A stretch of 64,000 nucleotides of DNA, taken from contig NZ_LUKE01000003.1 of assembly GCF_001592735.1 (NCBI RefSeq), positions 310,001-374,000 on the forward strand, in the 5' to 3' direction. Shown one piece after another: positions 34,274 to 42,262 of the stretch; within the stretch, counting starts at the first letter, position 1; the number at the start of each line of letters is the position of its first letter. The notes below the pieces were generated by a model. That model saw only the letters and a list, made by a program, of their open reading frames with translations. It made no database searches and had not been told where the DNA came from. Both the position numbers and the translations under genes were made by a program. Source of the stretch: Bdellovibrio bacteriovorus (GTDB taxonomy: Bacteria; Bdellovibrionota; Bdellovibrionia; Bdellovibrionales; Bdellovibrionaceae).

Positions 34274-34978
34274 ATGATGTCGCAGTCCAAGATCTGGTTC
34301 ATTTTAAGCGAAGGTCAAACCACCGGCCCCTTTGAACCTGACGAGGTGGAACAACATTTACCTTCAGCCAAAGAACCGCAAGTCTGGGGGCGCGGGCATT
34401 CCGAATGGATGCAACCAGCAAAATGGCGTCAGACTTTACGCGAAGCTGGTCATGTAACGGGTTCTTCCGGCCCTACTCCCGAAAAACCTCAAGGTCTATG
34501 GCGCGTCCGCGTTCATGGCGAAGAAAAAACACCCCTGCGCTATGCCGAGCTTGTCACTTATCTTAAAAATTTTTCAGATTTAAGTGCGATCGATGTCTTC
34601 CCCGAGGCTGGCGATACCTGGAAAGAAGTGTTCGCTATTCCTCGATTGGTGGAAGAATTAGGAATCAGCCGGCGCTCTCACCCTCGAGTTCCGATCGTGG
34701 GTACTTTGACTTTTGAAATCCCTCAAGGTGAGCAATCTTGCCGAGTGATCTCTATCAGCGAAGGCGGGATTGGAATCAACGATGCGCAAGGAATGCATAT
34801 TGGCAGCCAATTTCGCGGGACCCTGACAAGTCCAAATCTTTATGTGACCATTGATTGCATGTTTGAAGCCGTTTACATTGGCGCTGATGGTTACGCGGGT
34901 CTAAGATTTTTAGATATCACCGACGAACTCAAAAGCTCGGTCATTGAATACGTAAATAAATTTGCCGTGCATCAATGA
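34274..34978 (+). CDS. GYF-domain plus PilZ protein (c-di-GMP receptor candidate)
   Basis: 234 residues. Two GYF_2-like modules (IWFILSEGQTTGPFEPDEVE at about 6-25, and a second at about 77-125) precede a PilZ domain from about 130. The c-di-GMP motif RxxxR is present (RSHPR), while the second motif [DN]xSxxG reads SISEGG with Ser in place of Asp/Asn. It would sense c-di-GMP in the cytoplasm. It overlaps the OM barrel gene by 4 bp (ATGA), an unusual partner. Confidence 0.8.
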   Translation: MMSQSKIWFILSEGQTTGPFEPDEVEQHLPSAKEPQVWGRGHSEWMQPAKWRQTLREAGHVTGSSGPTPEKPQGLWRVRVHGEEKTPLRYAELVTYLKNFSDLSAIDVFPEAGDTWKEVFAIPRLVEELGISRRSHPRVPIVGTLTFEIPQGEQSCRVISISEGGIGINDAQGMHIGSQFRGTLTSPNLYVTIDCMFEAVYIGADGYAGLRFLDITDELKSSVIEYVNKFAVHQ

Positions 34979-36279
34979 GGTACGGCTTTTATCTTCTTTT
35001 GTTTTTATTTTCCTTTCAAGCTGAAGCCAAACGCTCCACCGAATGGGCCCTACACATCGATACAAAATTGGAAGCACGCTATTTTCCACAAGATTATGGC
35101 GAAGACACGAATAACGAAAATTTCCGTCTGGAATTACAGCCCAATTATAAGTGGACTTATTTAGATTCGATAAGATTCTACTTGAAGCCTGATTATGTTA
35201 CGGACCCTGGCAATAAATCAGAAAGCGAAAGAAATTATTTTGATTTTACCGAAGCCTATTTGCGCTACAAAGGTGACACGATCTCTTTACAAGCCGGCTA
35301 CGCTCTTTATTCTTGGGGCGTGACCGATGGATACAACCCTATTGATATCGTTAATTCCAAACAATACTTTGACCCTTTACAATCGCGAAAGATGGGAGCT
35401 TTGTCTTTAAGCTATTCGCAAAGTTTTGAAACTTGGGATTATGATCTGATTTATATTCCGCAAAACAAAGGTGCCATATTGCCCGGTGAAAACAGTCGCT
35501 GGTTGCCTCGAGAAATTTTTATTCCGGAAACTCCGGATAACGACATTGTTTTACTTTTGCCGGAAACTCTTCGCTATCGTTTTGGTGCACGCGAAAATTT
35601 GAACGACGCTTTAGACAACAATATTGCCGCCCGCATTCAATGGCGGGGTTTTGTTGATCTGGGCCTTTACTATTACGACGGGGTGGCTTCATTTCCTTTA
35701 GTGAAACCACAAGTTACCGGCAGCGTGGTGCAAGTCTCGCCAAAAACCGTGGTTTCAGTCGATCCAGACGTGTTCTTAAAAACCCAGAACTATCGCCTGC
35801 GCCAAGGCGCTATTTCAATGGTAAGAAACCAATGGGATTTGCTGTTTAAACTGGCGGCCACTTACCAACAAAGCATTGGTGATGATTCTTACTTGCCCGG
35901 CTGGATGCAAGAAACGGTGCTGGCGATGGAAAAGAATTTTCAATTTGGTTCAGACGGAATGCTCATTGCGGTTTTACAGAAGTCCTTTATTTCTTCTGAA
36001 AAAAGTAATGATTCAAATCTTTCTACCACCGAGATCTTTCGCGATTCATGGATGTTAGGCGGTCGTCTGTCTTGGTCTGAGGTGTGGTCGGCTTCTTTGT
36101 TAGGCTTATTAGAAACTCGCCATAATAGCAATTACAGCGAATTTGGAATTGGTCGCCGCCTTGGTGACGCTTGGAATTTGAATATTTCAGCAAGATTGAT
36201 TTCAGGAGACGCCCAAAATCCCTTAGGCGTTTATGAAAAAAATGACTCTTATTCTTTATCGCTGTCGCGATCTTTTTAA
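34975..36279 (+). CDS. outer-membrane beta-barrel protein (DUF1302-like)
   Basis: 434 residues. A signal peptide is cleaved near AEA-KR. Strand-rich throughout; the segment SWGVTDGYNPIDIVN resembles the W-G-x-x-D-x-x-NP motif of DUF1302-type barrels that accompany MMPL transporters. It ends SLSLSRSF with the terminal Phe. It is translationally coupled to the PilZ protein and convergent with the next gene, sharing stop-codon bases. Confidence 0.65.
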   Translation: MRYGFYLLLFLFSFQAEAKRSTEWALHIDTKLEARYFPQDYGEDTNNENFRLELQPNYKWTYLDSIRFYLKPDYVTDPGNKSESERNYFDFTEAYLRYKGDTISLQAGYALYSWGVTDGYNPIDIVNSKQYFDPLQSRKMGALSLSYSQSFETWDYDLIYIPQNKGAILPGENSRWLPREIFIPETPDNDIVLLLPETLRYRFGARENLNDALDNNIAARIQWRGFVDLGLYYYDGVASFPLVKPQVTGSVVQVSPKTVVSVDPDVFLKTQNYRLRQGAISMVRNQWDLLFKLAATYQQSIGDDSYLPGWMQETVLAMEKNFQFGSDGMLIAVLQKSFISSEKSNDSNLSTTEIFRDSWMLGGRLSWSEVWSASLLGLLETRHNSNYSEFGIGRRLGDAWNLNISARLISGDAQNPLGVYEKNDSYSLSLSRSF

Positions 36280-37790
36280 TTGCTAAGATCTAAAACCAAA
36301 TCTTGAGATCCCGTCACGCGCGCGGACTTCACTTTTAAGGCCAAACCATCCGCCACCGGAATACTTGGCAACACAGTTGTAATCTTTTGTCCCGTGATCG
36401 CTTCAATAATGCGACTCTGAATCGTACTTGATGAAAAACTTTTTGAAACACGATTTTTAGCCAAATAATTCTGATTCCACTGCGCATTCAAACTTAAGGC
36501 CGGAGTCCCTAAATCAGCCGTCACAACACCGTTTTGCACTTGCAGTTTGATATTTGCCTTCATCGGCACAGTGAAATCCATAAATGGAGCCAGCTTGCCA
36601 TTTTGTGGGGACTGCATTTGCGTGTAGATGTTTCCTTGCATTTGATAACTTAAACCCTGACCTTGGATGTTTAAATTTTTATTTGAGTACACATCAAAAC
36701 GAAAGACCGAAGTCTTAGGATACTTCATCAATTCGGGCCACACGAAAAACTGCAAAAAACGCGAACGCATCAACGACACAAAGCCTGAAATTTTATCGGA
36801 GTTAAACTGATGCATCCATGTGTTCGGCGCGTAAGCCCGTTTCATCACTTCTTTTAAAAAGTCTTTGGGCAATCTTAATGACGCCAAACCACCATTAGAG
36901 CTGGATTCACCAGATAGCGTAAGCACCTTCACGTCACTGTTTGGCGCACGATTAAAGTCGACCAAAAAATGACCGCTGACTTTAGCCCCACTAGAACCTA
37001 GATCTTTTAATTGATCCACGGTCATTGTCACCTTAATATCGGGGCGAGATATCACGAGCTGCTTACTGCCAGAAAAATCAAATTGCACTTTATCAAGTTC
37101 AGCTTGCACTGAGGCACGTAAAAATTCTTTATGAGGAGCTACAAAACTTTCAGAGTCTTGCGCCATCTTTTGAATTTCCTCTTTTAAGATCGCATCAAAA
37201 CCTTGAGCCCCCGCGCATTGCATCGAGGCCACCACCCAAGCATCGGGTGCCCAGCCTAGACGGACCGACTGAATTTCACCACCAGCGGTCGACGAACCCA
37301 CATTTGGAGTTAAAATAACGGCGAAGTCCCCCGCACCCGCTTTCATTTGCAGTTGCACTTGTTTACACTGAGCTTGCAGGCGAAAGCGGCCCACGATGCC
37401 GCCGACTTCACGCTCTACAATATGGTCCACGCTCACTTCACCAATCGTAAGAAGTGCTTGAAGATTCATTGAGGAAAGCTCTAAAGCGGTTTTTGAATCT
37501 TGCAACGCAGGCTTTTTTAATTGCGTTTTGATTTGCAGAAAAATGTCATTAATTTGGACAGGGATTTCTCCTTGTGCGACGACGACTTGATTAGGAAATT
37601 GCCAGTTTTTCGAGAATTCTTTATTCACAAAACTCGTCCACTTTTGGTTGATCAAGTTTTGCTGAAACTGTTTAGGTAGGACCAGTTCATATTCAGTTTT
37701 TATTTGCGATTTCGCAAAACCGTGTGAAGATAAAAGAGTCACTAGCGCACTCAACACGAGTTTCGTAAAATTACTTCTTTGATTTGTCAT
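36276..37790 (-). CDS. large exported protein, possible lipid-binding role
   Basis: 504 residues from the second ATG (37790); the first (37805) adds five residues. Signal peptide cleaved near GFA-KS. The mature part is beta-rich with few Cys. Its ending (TTVLPSIPVADGLALKVKSA) recalls the closing segment of TULIP/BPI lipid-binding proteins, but I cannot confirm homology. It lies between a DUF1302-like barrel and an MMPL-LolA gene. Confidence 0.6.
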   Translation of the reverse strand: MTNQRSNFTKLVLSALVTLLSSHGFAKSQIKTEYELVLPKQFQQNLINQKWTSFVNKEFSKNWQFPNQVVVAQGEIPVQINDIFLQIKTQLKKPALQDSKTALELSSMNLQALLTIGEVSVDHIVEREVGGIVGRFRLQAQCKQVQLQMKAGAGDFAVILTPNVGSSTAGGEIQSVRLGWAPDAWVVASMQCAGAQGFDAILKEEIQKMAQDSESFVAPHKEFLRASVQAELDKVQFDFSGSKQLVISRPDIKVTMTVDQLKDLGSSGAKVSGHFLVDFNRAPNSDVKVLTLSGESSSNGGLASLRLPKDFLKEVMKRAYAPNTWMHQFNSDKISGFVSLMRSRFLQFFVWPELMKYPKTSVFRFDVYSNKNLNIQGQGLSYQMQGNIYTQMQSPQNGKLAPFMDFTVPMKANIKLQVQNGVVTADLGTPALSLNAQWNQNYLAKNRVSKSFSSSTIQSRIIEAITGQKITTVLPSIPVADGLALKVKSARVTGSQDLVLDLSN

Positions 37791-37877
37791 CGTTTGTCCC
37801 ATCATGTTTTTAGATTACGGCTAGTTGATACTTTTCTAAAGTACTAAACGTTAAGAGCACCGAAAGAAGACAACTGC

Positions 37878-40800
37878 ATGAATATTTCAAATTTCGTCAA
37901 AAGAATATCCATCTCTAGCCTATTATTTGTTTTTGCTCTGACTCTAGCGAGCCTTTTTGTACTGCCTAAGTTGCAAACTCAATACAGCCTTAAGCAATTC
38001 CTTCCTCAAGATAACCCGCTGCTGAAAAAAGACGATAACACGCGACAAATCTTTCAATTGGCTGATTCACAGCCGTTTATTATTACAGCAAAACTGTCTA
38101 ATGAAGGCGAGACCTGGTTTGAAAAAAAGAAGATCGAAAAACTAGAAAGACTCACAGATCTTTTAAAAAACTTTCCCGGCGTGAAAGGCACGCTGAGCTT
38201 GGCTAACATCCAAGGTGCGATAGATAAAAACGAAGGACTTAGCGTTGGTCCAGTTCTTAAAAACCTTCCGCCAAGTGCGTGGGCTCAAGAAACCTTGAGC
38301 AACCCCCTTATTTCCCCGACCTTGATTTCAAAAGATGCGCAAACCGCGTCGGTGATCGTAAATATTCAATCATTAGAGTCTCATGAACTTTCTCAATTGC
38401 GCGAAAATTTGGAAGTCACGGCCAAAGCGTCTTTGCCTTTCTCTCAAGTTGAAATCGGTGGAACTCCGGCCGTCCAAACGGACGTCGGTGTTTTATTAAA
38501 GACCGAGATTCGCAATTTTGTGGTTTTAGGCTTTGTGGCTTGTTTTCTCGTTTTAGCTTTGATCTTTTCTAATTGGTCTCCGCTTATTATGGCGTTCATC
38601 ATTATTCTTTGCGCCAATATTCTTGTCCTCGCAGCAATGGCTTTAGCCGGATATCCGTTTTCCGTTTTATCCAGCACGATTCCCATTTTAACGACCGTGG
38701 ATGTGGTCTCCCTTTTAATTCACACTTTGTTACGCGTGACCGAGGAACGAAAAAATCAACCTCACTTAAGTCATGCCGAAGTGGTGAACTATACTTTTAA
38801 AGCTTTACTGGGACCGAATCTTTTTGCCTCCACCACCACGATGATTGGCTTTTTAGCTTTACTCACCGTGAAAGTTCCGTTGATCCGCGATTACGGAGTG
38901 ACTGCAGCGGCCGCGATCATTTTAGGCTGGGTCGTAACAACCTTGATGATTTTCCCCTTGCTACATTTTATGCCGGAGCCACGCGCGCGTGAGTGGGCAT
39001 GGAAAAAAGCACGCTGGGCGCTATACCTATTTCGCAGATCTGGAGTATGGGCCTTTCTTATTATTTTGATTTGTTCTGGCTTAGCCCTTAAAGGACAAAG
39101 TCTTTCTTGGTCCGCTCGACTTTTTGATGACTTGCCCACAAATCACCAAGTGCGTCTTTCAACCGAGCGTATTGATAAGGAGCTAGGCGGGATGATTCCT
39201 CTAGATATCCAAATCAAAGGCAAGAATGAAGCTTGGAATGATCCAAAACTCTTGGCCCAGCTTGATCAGCTTTCAACGGATCTGCGTGGCTATCAAGGCG
39301 TGGGCAGCGTCGTCGCATTGCCCGACTTAGTCGCCGCGGCTAATATCCATCACTCGCGCTTACCCGCAAGTCGATCCTCGACAGCCGAGATTTTCTTTTT
39401 GTATTCACTTTCTGACAACAGTCCTTTAAAGAATTTCTTAAATGCGGACTCTTCCAACACTCGGGTCTCCGTAAGAACACAAGACTTACCCGGCAATGAG
39501 TTAGAGGCTTTGGTTAAGAAAATAACCGCCCAGGCTTCCGCGCGCTTCCCTGATATGCAAGTGGAAGTCACCGGGATGGGATCAACGATTCACCATCTTA
39601 ACAACGAACTTTCTCACGAATTGATTTTTGGATTCTGGCAGTCTATGGCCGCAATCTGTTTGGTTTTAATGGTCGTGTTTCGTTCTTTACGTTGGGCTTT
39701 GGTGGCTTGTATTCCCAATTTAGTCCCACCCGCGGCATTATTAGGTTTTTTAGCCGTTTCAGAAACACCGATCAAACCCAGTGTGGCGATTATTTTTTCC
39801 ATCGCGTTAGGATTGGCGTTTAACAATACGGTTTATCTTTTAGAACGGCTGCGTTCGATTCAAAAAAGATCGGGGGCCCGGGACCTTGAAATTGAAAAAA
39901 CCATGTGGCGAGAGGGCAACCCTTGTTTGATTTCCAGCATGACGTTGCTAGCGGGATTTTCTGTATTTATGGCCTCTTACTTCGCTATGAATCGCATTTT
40001 TGGTTTCTACATGTTACTTTCGATGCTGGCGGGCCTGGTAGGTGACCTTGTTCTTTTACCAACCTTGCTAAAAAGTTGTCCTTGGCTGTTAACGTCTGTG
40101 ACTTGGAAAAAGGAGAGAATTATGGCAACGACATCGGCTCTATTATTGGCTATCTTCGTTTCGTTTTCACCGACCCCAGCCTATGCGGCGTTGCCCACCC
40201 CACAACAGGTTGGTCAGGAAATGTCGTCTCGCTTAAGCGCTAAGGATGAACAGTTCTCGGTGAAAATGAAAATTATTGAGGCCGATGGTTCTAGTAAAGA
40301 ACGACAGATGCGTATTTCTCGCTTAAGTCCTTCAAAAAAAGAACACTATATGATGGTGCGCATGATGAAACCCCAAGATCTTAACGGCACGGGTTTGTTA
40401 GCAACCCTCAAAGGCGATCAAGAGGAAAAATGGATTTATCTCCCCTCGTCTAAACAAACTCGCCGCTTAACGGGCGAAAGTGGTCAGGGTGGCATCTTGG
40501 GGTCTGAACTTTCGACGGAAGACTTTGATTTTAATCGCAGTGAAGGCGCGCAAACGGCGGTGAAAAAAGAAATTGAAATCAAGGGTAAAAAGTATTTCGT
40601 TCTGGAAAGTGATGTCTCTGGGACTTCGGCAAACTATTCTAAGGTCGTCAGCTATGTTTCTGCTTCTGATTATTTACCAATGAAGGCTGAATGCTATGAC
40701 AAACAAGGTAAACTTTTAAAAGTGATTGATATCACCGGACATAAGAAAGTGGCGGCAAATAAATGGCGCGCCAGCAAGATCACGATCAAGAACGTGCAGA

Positions 40801-40895
40801 ACAAGCGTGCTACAGAAATCACTATGTCTGATGTAAAAATCGATCAAGGCTTGAGCGCAAACAAATTTACCCCTAAAGCGCTGGCCGAAGAGTAG
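37878..40895 (+). CDS. MMPL/RND transporter fused to a LolA-like domain
   Basis: 1005 residues. Residues 1-740 form an RND exporter of the MMPL type: one N-terminal helix, a periplasmic domain, five helices (about 210-370), then the repeat of that plan with helices at about 590-740. From residue 749 (MATTSALLLAIF...PAYAA) a second signal-peptide-like segment leads to a LolA_like domain (DLNGTGLLATL, EKWIYLPSSKQTRRL, GSELSTEDFDF). The internal Met at 40122 has a strong ribosome site, so a separate periplasmic protein may also be made. Such pairs move lipids or lipoproteins across the envelope. Confidence 0.8.
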   Translation: MNISNFVKRISISSLLFVFALTLASLFVLPKLQTQYSLKQFLPQDNPLLKKDDNTRQIFQLADSQPFIITAKLSNEGETWFEKKKIEKLERLTDLLKNFPGVKGTLSLANIQGAIDKNEGLSVGPVLKNLPPSAWAQETLSNPLISPTLISKDAQTASVIVNIQSLESHELSQLRENLEVTAKASLPFSQVEIGGTPAVQTDVGVLLKTEIRNFVVLGFVACFLVLALIFSNWSPLIMAFIIILCANILVLAAMALAGYPFSVLSSTIPILTTVDVVSLLIHTLLRVTEERKNQPHLSHAEVVNYTFKALLGPNLFASTTTMIGFLALLTVKVPLIRDYGVTAAAAIILGWVVTTLMIFPLLHFMPEPRAREWAWKKARWALYLFRRSGVWAFLIILICSGLALKGQSLSWSARLFDDLPTNHQVRLSTERIDKELGGMIPLDIQIKGKNEAWNDPKLLAQLDQLSTDLRGYQGVGSVVALPDLVAAANIHHSRLPASRSSTAEIFFLYSLSDNSPLKNFLNADSSNTRVSVRTQDLPGNELEALVKKITAQASARFPDMQVEVTGMGSTIHHLNNELSHELIFGFWQSMAAICLVLMVVFRSLRWALVACIPNLVPPAALLGFLAVSETPIKPSVAIIFSIALGLAFNNTVYLLERLRSIQKRSGARDLEIEKTMWREGNPCLISSMTLLAGFSVFMASYFAMNRIFGFYMLLSMLAGLVGDLVLLPTLLKSCPWLLTSVTWKKERIMATTSALLLAIFVSFSPTPAYAALPTPQQVGQEMSSRLSAKDEQFSVKMKIIEADGSSKERQMRISRLSPSKKEHYMMVRMMKPQDLNGTGLLATLKGDQEEKWIYLPSSKQTRRLTGESGQGGILGSELSTEDFDFNRSEGAQTAVKKEIEIKGKKYFVLESDVSGTSANYSKVVSYVSASDYLPMKAECYDKQGKLLKVIDITGHKKVAANKWRASKITIKNVQNKRATEITMSDVKIDQGLSANKFTPKALAEE
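40122..40895 (+). CDS. possible independently translated LolA-like periplasmic protein (in-frame within the MMPL ORF)
   Basis: AAAGGAGAG lies 5 nt before the in-frame ATG at 40122. Translation from here gives 257 residues: a normal signal peptide (cleavage near AYA-AL), then the LolA_like domain. In other bacteria the MMPL transporter and LolA_like protein are usually separate adjacent genes. Either a genuine fusion, a nested gene, or both. Confidence 0.5.
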   Translation: MATTSALLLAIFVSFSPTPAYAALPTPQQVGQEMSSRLSAKDEQFSVKMKIIEADGSSKERQMRISRLSPSKKEHYMMVRMMKPQDLNGTGLLATLKGDQEEKWIYLPSSKQTRRLTGESGQGGILGSELSTEDFDFNRSEGAQTAVKKEIEIKGKKYFVLESDVSGTSANYSKVVSYVSASDYLPMKAECYDKQGKLLKVIDITGHKKVAANKWRASKITIKNVQNKRATEITMSDVKIDQGLSANKFTPKALAEE

Positions 40896-40911: not shown

Positions 40912-41511
40912 CTACAGCCGACAAAGCCAGACGGTGGCGCCGCCGGCGGATTTATCTTCTACATCTAGCGCCACCACCCTAAATCCCGCATCGGTTAAAA
41001 TCTGTCTATACTCATGCTGAGATAAAGACGCATGATAAAGATTTTCGCCATAGTTTTCTCCCCAGGCTTCGCCGTGGGCCGGGCCTGAAGTAAATAATAA
41101 ACTTCCTTGAGGATTTAAAACTTGCGCCAGCTTGGGCAGAAGTTTTCGCTGGTCATCATAAGGCAAATGAAACGAGCTGTGCCACATGATAATTCCGTCA
41201 AATTTTTCAGAAAGATTCAAATCGCGCATATCTTGCACTTCCGGATTTATTGAAGGCACATACTTTTTAGCCAACTCGATCATCTTTTGGCTGCCATCAA
41301 TTCCTTTGACACTAAAACCTTGGCTTAAAATATAGGACGCGATCGGTCTCCCCGAACCACACCCTAAATCCAAAATTTTTCCTTCTTTTTTAACTTGAGC
41401 CAGGAATCGATCTAAATGCTTTTTTTCCATGCGCAGATCTTGGGCGCGCTCGGAATCAAACCATTCACCTATTTTATTATATAAGCCGTAAACTTGCTCC
41501 TTGGTGCTCAC
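40912..41511 (-). CDS. class I SAM-dependent methyltransferase
   Basis: 199 residues. Motif I ILDLGCGSGRP binds S-adenosylmethionine; GIDGSQKMIELAKK is the second strand acid; MWHSSFHLPYDDQ follows. The substrate is unknown. Downstream of a solute-binding protein gene by 10 bp and probably co-transcribed with it. Confidence 0.8.
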   Translation of the reverse strand: MSTKEQVYGLYNKIGEWFDSERAQDLRMEKKHLDRFLAQVKKEGKILDLGCGSGRPIASYILSQGFSVKGIDGSQKMIELAKKYVPSINPEVQDMRDLNLSEKFDGIIMWHSSFHLPYDDQRKLLPKLAQVLNPQGSLLFTSGPAHGEAWGENYGENLYHASLSQHEYRQILTDAGFRVVALDVEDKSAGGATVWLCRL

Positions 41512-41521
41512 AAATCAGTCC

Positions 41522-42262
41522 TCAATTTTTAGTGGCAAAAAGGCGATCTAAAGAACCGTCTTTTTTCATTTCATTTAAAGTTTTATCAAAAAGATCTCTT
41601 AAAGCCGCTCCTTGTGCTGAATTTTCAAAGGCAAAATGAATAGACTTTGAAGATAGCTTACTCGCTTTATCAAATTCGATATTAGTAAAACCGCTTTCTT
41701 GAAGCGCTTTTATTCCGGAACGCTCCTCAACAACAAAAGCATCAATTAAACCATCCCCCAATTTTTTCATATTAATAAAATCATCATCTGCATATTCCAC
41801 GCGGATTTTTTTATTATTTAAAATTTCGGGATCATAAAAATATCTAAACGTCAGACCGACCTTTTTACCTTCAAGATCCTTAATACTGGTCAAACGCTTG
41901 TCTTTTCTAAAAAACACATAGTCGTTTTTAGTATAAAAGGGCGTCGTCGCGATCATGTTCTTTGAAAGCGACATAATATGTGCCGGAAAATATCCATGCA
42001 CCTTACTGCTTGAAAAAGACATCAAAGCTTGCCCCGCAGATTGCACCGAAACTCCGATGTCTTTTTTATTCCGCTTACCAATTTCACGCACCAGTTCAAC
42101 AAAAAGACCTTTATCCTTACTCTCAACCATTAAAGGAATCGTCCAAGTAACCAGTTCAATTTTCGCGGGATACACAGAATTAGCAACAGCGGTACGAGCT
42201 TGAGCTTCGTATAAGACAAGAAAAAATCCCAGAGAGTATGCAATCAGAAAGTTCCAGCGCAT
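41522..42262 (-). CDS. periplasmic solute-binding protein, family 3-like
   Basis: 246 residues. A signal peptide is cleaved near AQA-RT. The two-lobed SBP_bac_3 pattern shows in SIKDLEGKKVGLTFRYFY, GLIDAFVVEERSGIKAL and the C-terminal LFDKTLNEMKKDGSLDRLF. No transporter genes adjoin, so it may be an orphan binding or sensing protein. The ligand is probably amino-acid-like, but that is inference. Confidence 0.75.
   Translation of the reverse strand: MRWNFLIAYSLGFFLVLYEAQARTAVANSVYPAKIELVTWTIPLMVESKDKGLFVELVREIGKRNKKDIGVSVQSAGQALMSFSSSKVHGYFPAHIMSLSKNMIATTPFYTKNDYVFFRKDKRLTSIKDLEGKKVGLTFRYFYDPEILNNKKIRVEYADDDFINMKKLGDGLIDAFVVEERSGIKALQESGFTNIEFDKASKLSSKSIHFAFENSAQGAALRDLFDKTLNEMKKDGSLDRLFATKN

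Follow-up and report, generated by a model that had tools for sequence, protein, structure and literature searches.

A conserved translation start inside the unbroken MMPL-LolA-like frame of Bdellovibrio bacteriovorus suggests two routes to one secreted carrier

Within a 64,000-nucleotide stretch of the Bdellovibrio bacteriovorus genome (hereafter the window), a gene that joins an MMPL transporter to a LolA-like carrier in one uninterrupted frame contains a second translation start which, judged from its conservation, is very likely real and selected. We hypothesize, and hold it to be reasonably probable on comparative grounds, that this gene yields a long precursor and a short pre-carrier, both of which signal peptidase I converts by cleavage into one and the same soluble LolA-like protein. 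Translation from 37878 would, as the sequence itself dictates, have to run on to a 1005-residue precursor composed of MMPL transporter, signal-peptide segment and LolA-like domain, and translation from 40122, on the selected internal ribosome-binding site (RBS), would make a pre-carrier of 257 residues, as the nucleotide-level conservation implies. The same signal peptide would direct the LolA-like domain to the periplasm in both products, signal peptidase I would cleave each of them after Ala770, as the conserved site suggests, and both routes would end in an identical soluble carrier of 235 residues. The precursor would then provide carrier and transporter in equal number, and the internal start additional copies of the carrier; to judge from the families concerned, the carrier probably accepts a lipid or lipoprotein at the transporter and conveys it in the direction of the outer membrane.

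The fusion ORF occupies 37878..40895 on the + strand. The ORF list and the translation both confirmed the two lengths given in an earlier note on this DNA, namely one continuous, stop-free frame of 1005 residues and a 257-residue product from the internal ATG. No stop codon separates the MMPL and LolA-like parts, so the locus is not an overlapping, translationally coupled gene pair. The transporter part (37878..40088, + strand; residues ~1-737) belongs to the MMPL family by its Pfam match to PF03176 (95.7 bits, cut-off 20.5). Its best NCBIfam match, TIGR00921 (HAE3 RND), reached 179 bits and thus stayed below the cut-off of 351.9; the part is related to the HAE3 RND subfamily but is not a member by this model. 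Its assignment as an MMPL/HAE3-type RND transporter also draws on the structural model and on Foldseek matches to MmpL and HpnN. At the other end, Pfam placed LolA_like PF17131 at residues 822-1003 of the fusion, and the short form scored 147.5 bits against a cut-off of 30, which makes it a member of that family; canonical LolA, PF03548, was not among the Pfam families found in the fusion at E 0.01. In phmmer, the 257-residue product matched solved LolA-like structures (3bk5, E 3.3e-27), and the predicted mature carrier of 235 residues corresponds to 40188..40892 (+ strand).

The internal ATG (40122..40124, + strand; Met749) does stand in frame behind the Shine-Dalgarno (SD) motif AAAGGAG, as the earlier note had described, but the gap is 6 nt rather than 5 nt, the motif lying at 40109..40115 (+ strand), where it partly encodes K744-K745-E746. 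Taken from the single sequence alone, this SD-ATG site is not significant: a 464-kb sample of this genome has 2421 internal in-frame ATGs, and 60 of them (2.5%, or about one per six ORFs) reach an anti-SD energy of -8.8 kcal/mol or better. Its significance comes instead from conservation and from recurrence in other lineages. The background rate is what speaks for an SD-like string that merely happens to precede some unremarkable Met within a working fusion protein; conservation at the level of codons within the genus and junction-specific enrichment elsewhere make such a coincidence very improbable.

The genus comparison covered 21 homologues, i.e. the window gene and L035-L054. The Met749 ATG was present in all 21, and the codons of the SD were fixed to a degree not seen elsewhere in the gene. 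The Lys codon that supplies AAGG was AAG in 20/20 cases against a gene-wide AAG usage of 0.303, and the Glu codon was GAG in 20/21 against a usage of 0.298, the sole exception being a GAA in L047 that leaves AAGGA intact. The single Lys-to-Arg change, in L048, uses the rare codon CGG and thereby retains GGGAG. The two SD columns are the most extreme among 35 Lys and 21 Glu columns, the next most biased reaching 0.62 (Lys) and 0.71 (Glu); by rank only, the probability of first place in both lists is 1/35 x 1/21, or ~0.0014, and in size, too, both values stand far apart from the others. The mean anti-SD energy at Met749 over the 21 genomes was -8.8 kcal/mol (weakest -5.8), the lowest among 14 conserved Met columns, of which the next had -5.1. 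In a homologue from a neighbouring genus (L055), AAGGAG and the ATG are retained despite a 3-codon insertion just upstream; within the genus, L056 has lost both. From these alignments, we consider it highly probable that the internal RBS is under nucleotide-level selection in the genus and, with only slightly less assurance, that it is used for initiation. With a conserved in-frame internal start that has its own RBS, the gene shows the sequence features of a dual-product gene with internal initiation.

Two other devices that could have operated around the start were considered and dropped. RNAalifold gave no sign of a conserved hairpin covering the SD: its energies were no better than those of codon-column shuffles, and the window's own RNA fold was no more stable than shuffled sequence (z 1.10). 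An internal promoter was sought for sigma-70 only, with no + strand site near the junction and a total number of sites at shuffle level. As a separate observation, synonymous conservation is raised at 40038..40085 (+ strand), 40-85 nt upstream of the internal start; this stretch, with a genus consensus that includes GATTTGATTCTT, holds the five-codon windows with the gene's highest excess codon identity in the genus.

Internal starts also recur in other fused lineages. We counted as strong any ATG whose SD had an energy of -7 or better within 23 codons up to the signal-peptide core, with the expectation taken from gene bodies. In the order, 30 fused genes belonging to other genera and families contained 7 such ATGs before the signal peptide (0.5 expected), and 18 fused genes from across the phylum contained 11 (0.6 expected), distributed over 10 of the 18. 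The phylum set was analysed twice, since the automatically chosen hydrophobic core was TM12 in several genes (giving a count of 7) and a fixed distance to the carrier domain gave the 11. For all 48 fused genes together, 18 were found where 1.06 were expected (Fisher p 3e-15, with relatedness ignored). Several starts of the phylum set open MK-type signal peptides behind GGAGGAAAT or AAAGGAGATAAA. A strong internal start is absent from 24 of the 30 order genes and 8 of the 18 phylum genes; these and L056 indicate that it is not essential everywhere. In L126, L131, L132 and L133, which belong to other families, classical starts (GGAGGAAATATGAAA and the like) stand before MK-type signal peptides inside the MMPL frame, and these genes may be better experimental models than the window gene.

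The segment that follows Met749 (residues 749-770; 40122..40187, + strand) was called a textbook signal peptide in the earlier note, and the hydrophobic core and the AYA|A site bear this out in part. Its N-terminus is less orthodox: there is no Lys or Arg in the first 12 residues of the short form in any of the 21 genomes, which is unusual for a signal peptide, and the charged KKER lies upstream of the Met, the five residues preceding it carrying a net charge of +2. A few signal peptides without an early Lys or Arg were seen elsewhere in this genome by a crude rule rather than by SignalP. Either the long form carries the more complete signal, or the KKEK residues arise as a side effect of the SD, and the data fit both readings. 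Signal peptidase I is predicted to cut after Ala770 within an AxA-like motif. Ala at -1 was conserved in 23/23 sequences (the genus alignment with L055 and L056) within an otherwise variable segment, and an AxA-like motif followed the segment in 52 of 53 fused proteins, compared with 191 of 420 transporter transmembrane (TM) segments; the sole miss, L056, reflects a misplaced core, and SNA is present there. The motif occurs in fused genes devoid of an internal start as well, and this points to processing of the long form, too. On this evidence, it is likely that the short form is secreted and cut, and somewhat less securely, though still on the side of probability, that the long form is cut too.

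The conserved cleavage motif also bears on the idea, put forward in the earlier note, of a tethered and a soluble product, in which the long form would keep the segment as a 13th transmembrane anchor with the LolA domain attached and the internal start would make the free form. This idea shares the internal-start evidence with the explanation we favour, and the net +2 ahead of the segment in the long form is as expected for an inner-membrane anchor. Set against it are the signal peptidase motif, a hydropathy lower than that of transporter TM segments (mean best 19-residue value 1.70 vs 2.22), split relatives that have no tether, and the AlphaFold model, in which residues 741-773 have pLDDT < 50 and form no helix, although a signal peptide and a linker would both be expected to give such low pLDDT at a junction, and cleavage is not proved by it. 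Of the earlier proposal, the dual product is well supported at the sequence level by an RBS and ATG that are conserved and recur in fused lineages, but the tethered form is probably wrong and we regard a tethered and soluble pair as unlikely.

It is conceivable, too, that the internal start is unused, that the carrier arises by signal peptidase cleavage only, and that the SD-like codons serve, e.g., a translational pause at the junction. The cleavage motif of fused relatives without an internal start would fit, as would the position upstream of the Met of the charged residues that a signal peptide needs. A pause, however, has no need of an ATG, and within the genus SD, spacing and ATG are conserved together, while SD-ATG pairs recur at the junction elsewhere, some with classical MK-type signal peptides; we therefore rate this reading as improbable, more so than the tethered pair.

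A homologue was present in 38 of the 66 genomes of the family. Wherever it occurs in the genus, the carrier lies inside a frame of about 1015-1066 codons, or 894 at a contig end; in G004 and G013, which also belong to the genus, transporter and carrier are both absent. Other families of the phylum have frames of such length as well, and each of the 8 phylum-level genes tested with Pfam contained both domains. The earlier note had also considered that the MMPL stop codon might have disappeared recently, or that a sequencing error might have merged two genes, and had proposed looking in close relatives for a stop just before the ATG; sequences from the genus, as well as most homologues from the order, have the same unbroken junction. 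Separate-gene relatives inside and outside the phylum are what such an event could appeal to, yet the shared frame leaves it next to no probability. By these comparisons the fusion is ancient, and recent stop loss and sequencing error are rejected.

In a tree of the carrier domain, in which several inner branches are weak, the split genes are nested among fused ones. Two of the split relatives, L093 and L094, have a carrier ATG that either overlaps the stop of MMPL (AAAATGACA) or sits in the last MMPL codons, and both thus show the layout of a coupled overlapping pair, the first stop coinciding with the second start or lying close to it. Four annotated loci from outside the phylum (in Haliovirga, Prevotella, Sulfitobacter and Pseudoalteromonas) keep the MMPL and carrier genes apart: the spacing is 290, 11 or 12 nt in three of them, and in the fourth the genes overlap by 4 nt. 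The simplest path suggested by these arrangements is that an overlapping operon lost its stop in frame and its downstream start stayed, and regain of the internal start in places is possible. Extended to the phylum, this would describe a stopless operon of Bdellovibrionota-type genomes, in which MMPL and LolA-like parts have long shared one frame, the RBS and start of the carrier have been kept or regained in many lineages, and a single gene supplements the fixed 1:1 supply from the precursor with further, adjustable amounts of that secreted carrier; we think that this generalization could as well prove wrong as right.

The putative function of the gene is the export of a lipid or lipoprotein to the outer membrane. 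A probable outer membrane barrel protein (34975..36279, + strand) is a possible partner by synteny; it has weak local similarity to DUF1302 proteins and, in Pfam, only a sub-threshold Wzi match. Between it and the fusion lies a divergently transcribed protein of 509 residues (36276..37805, - strand) with a signal-peptide-like N-terminus and no Pfam family. Both are conserved beside the fusion in the genus and may be partners in the same export path. On the other side, an ORF that looks methyltransferase-like by eye (40912-41511, - strand) adjoins the fusion in the window; in L031, L048 and L049 it was not found at that place, and the fusion is followed there by the homologue of 41522-42262. 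The same genome has a separate canonical LolA (a PF03548 protein), so the fusion carrier is not the cell's only LolA-type protein.

Both internal in-frame starts and prokaryotic polyproteins are known, and the fusion is a variant of these kinds. FbcH, the cytochrome b/c1 protein of Bradyrhizobium japonicum, is reportedly a prokaryotic polyprotein whose internal signal sequence is a substrate of signal peptidase. Like it, the fusion joins a multispanning membrane protein in frame to a periplasmic partner, two proteins with an internal signal peptide and a signal peptidase site, cleavage in the fusion being predicted by motif; FbcH belongs to an electron-transport complex, and the conserved internal RBS and start are the extra feature of the fusion. 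In-frame internal initiation occurs in infB and other bacterial genes. Another example is clpA (listed in the references of PMC11005335). Genes of this type share with the fusion one frame, two starts each with an RBS, and a long and a short product with a common C-terminus. Unlike theirs, the short product of the fusion comprises an entire secreted partner domain, complete with signal peptide, and its two routes should give the same mature carrier after cleavage. The same two families stand side by side in Haliovirga, Prevotella, Sulfitobacter and Pseudoalteromonas, where a stop and a separate start replace the single frame of the window gene; a DUF1302 gene adjoins the pair in two of the four, Haliovirga and Prevotella. 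MmpL3/4/5 and HpnN share the transporter fold (Foldseek E 1.8e-21 to MSMEG_3496 and 9.7e-16 to HpnN) at ~11-14% identity and, judged by the titles of their entries, have no fused LolA-like carrier. We found no paper on MMPL-LolA fusions in the open-access library searched.

If the proposed scheme is true, the gene would offer a clear and testable example of a translation start that selection has preserved within an uninterrupted coding sequence, with a second product that is a secreted partner protein and not a shortened version of the first. It would also suggest that what is annotated in the phylum as an MMPL-LolA fusion is the precursor of two proteins, and that annotation may in general overlook starts within fused genes.
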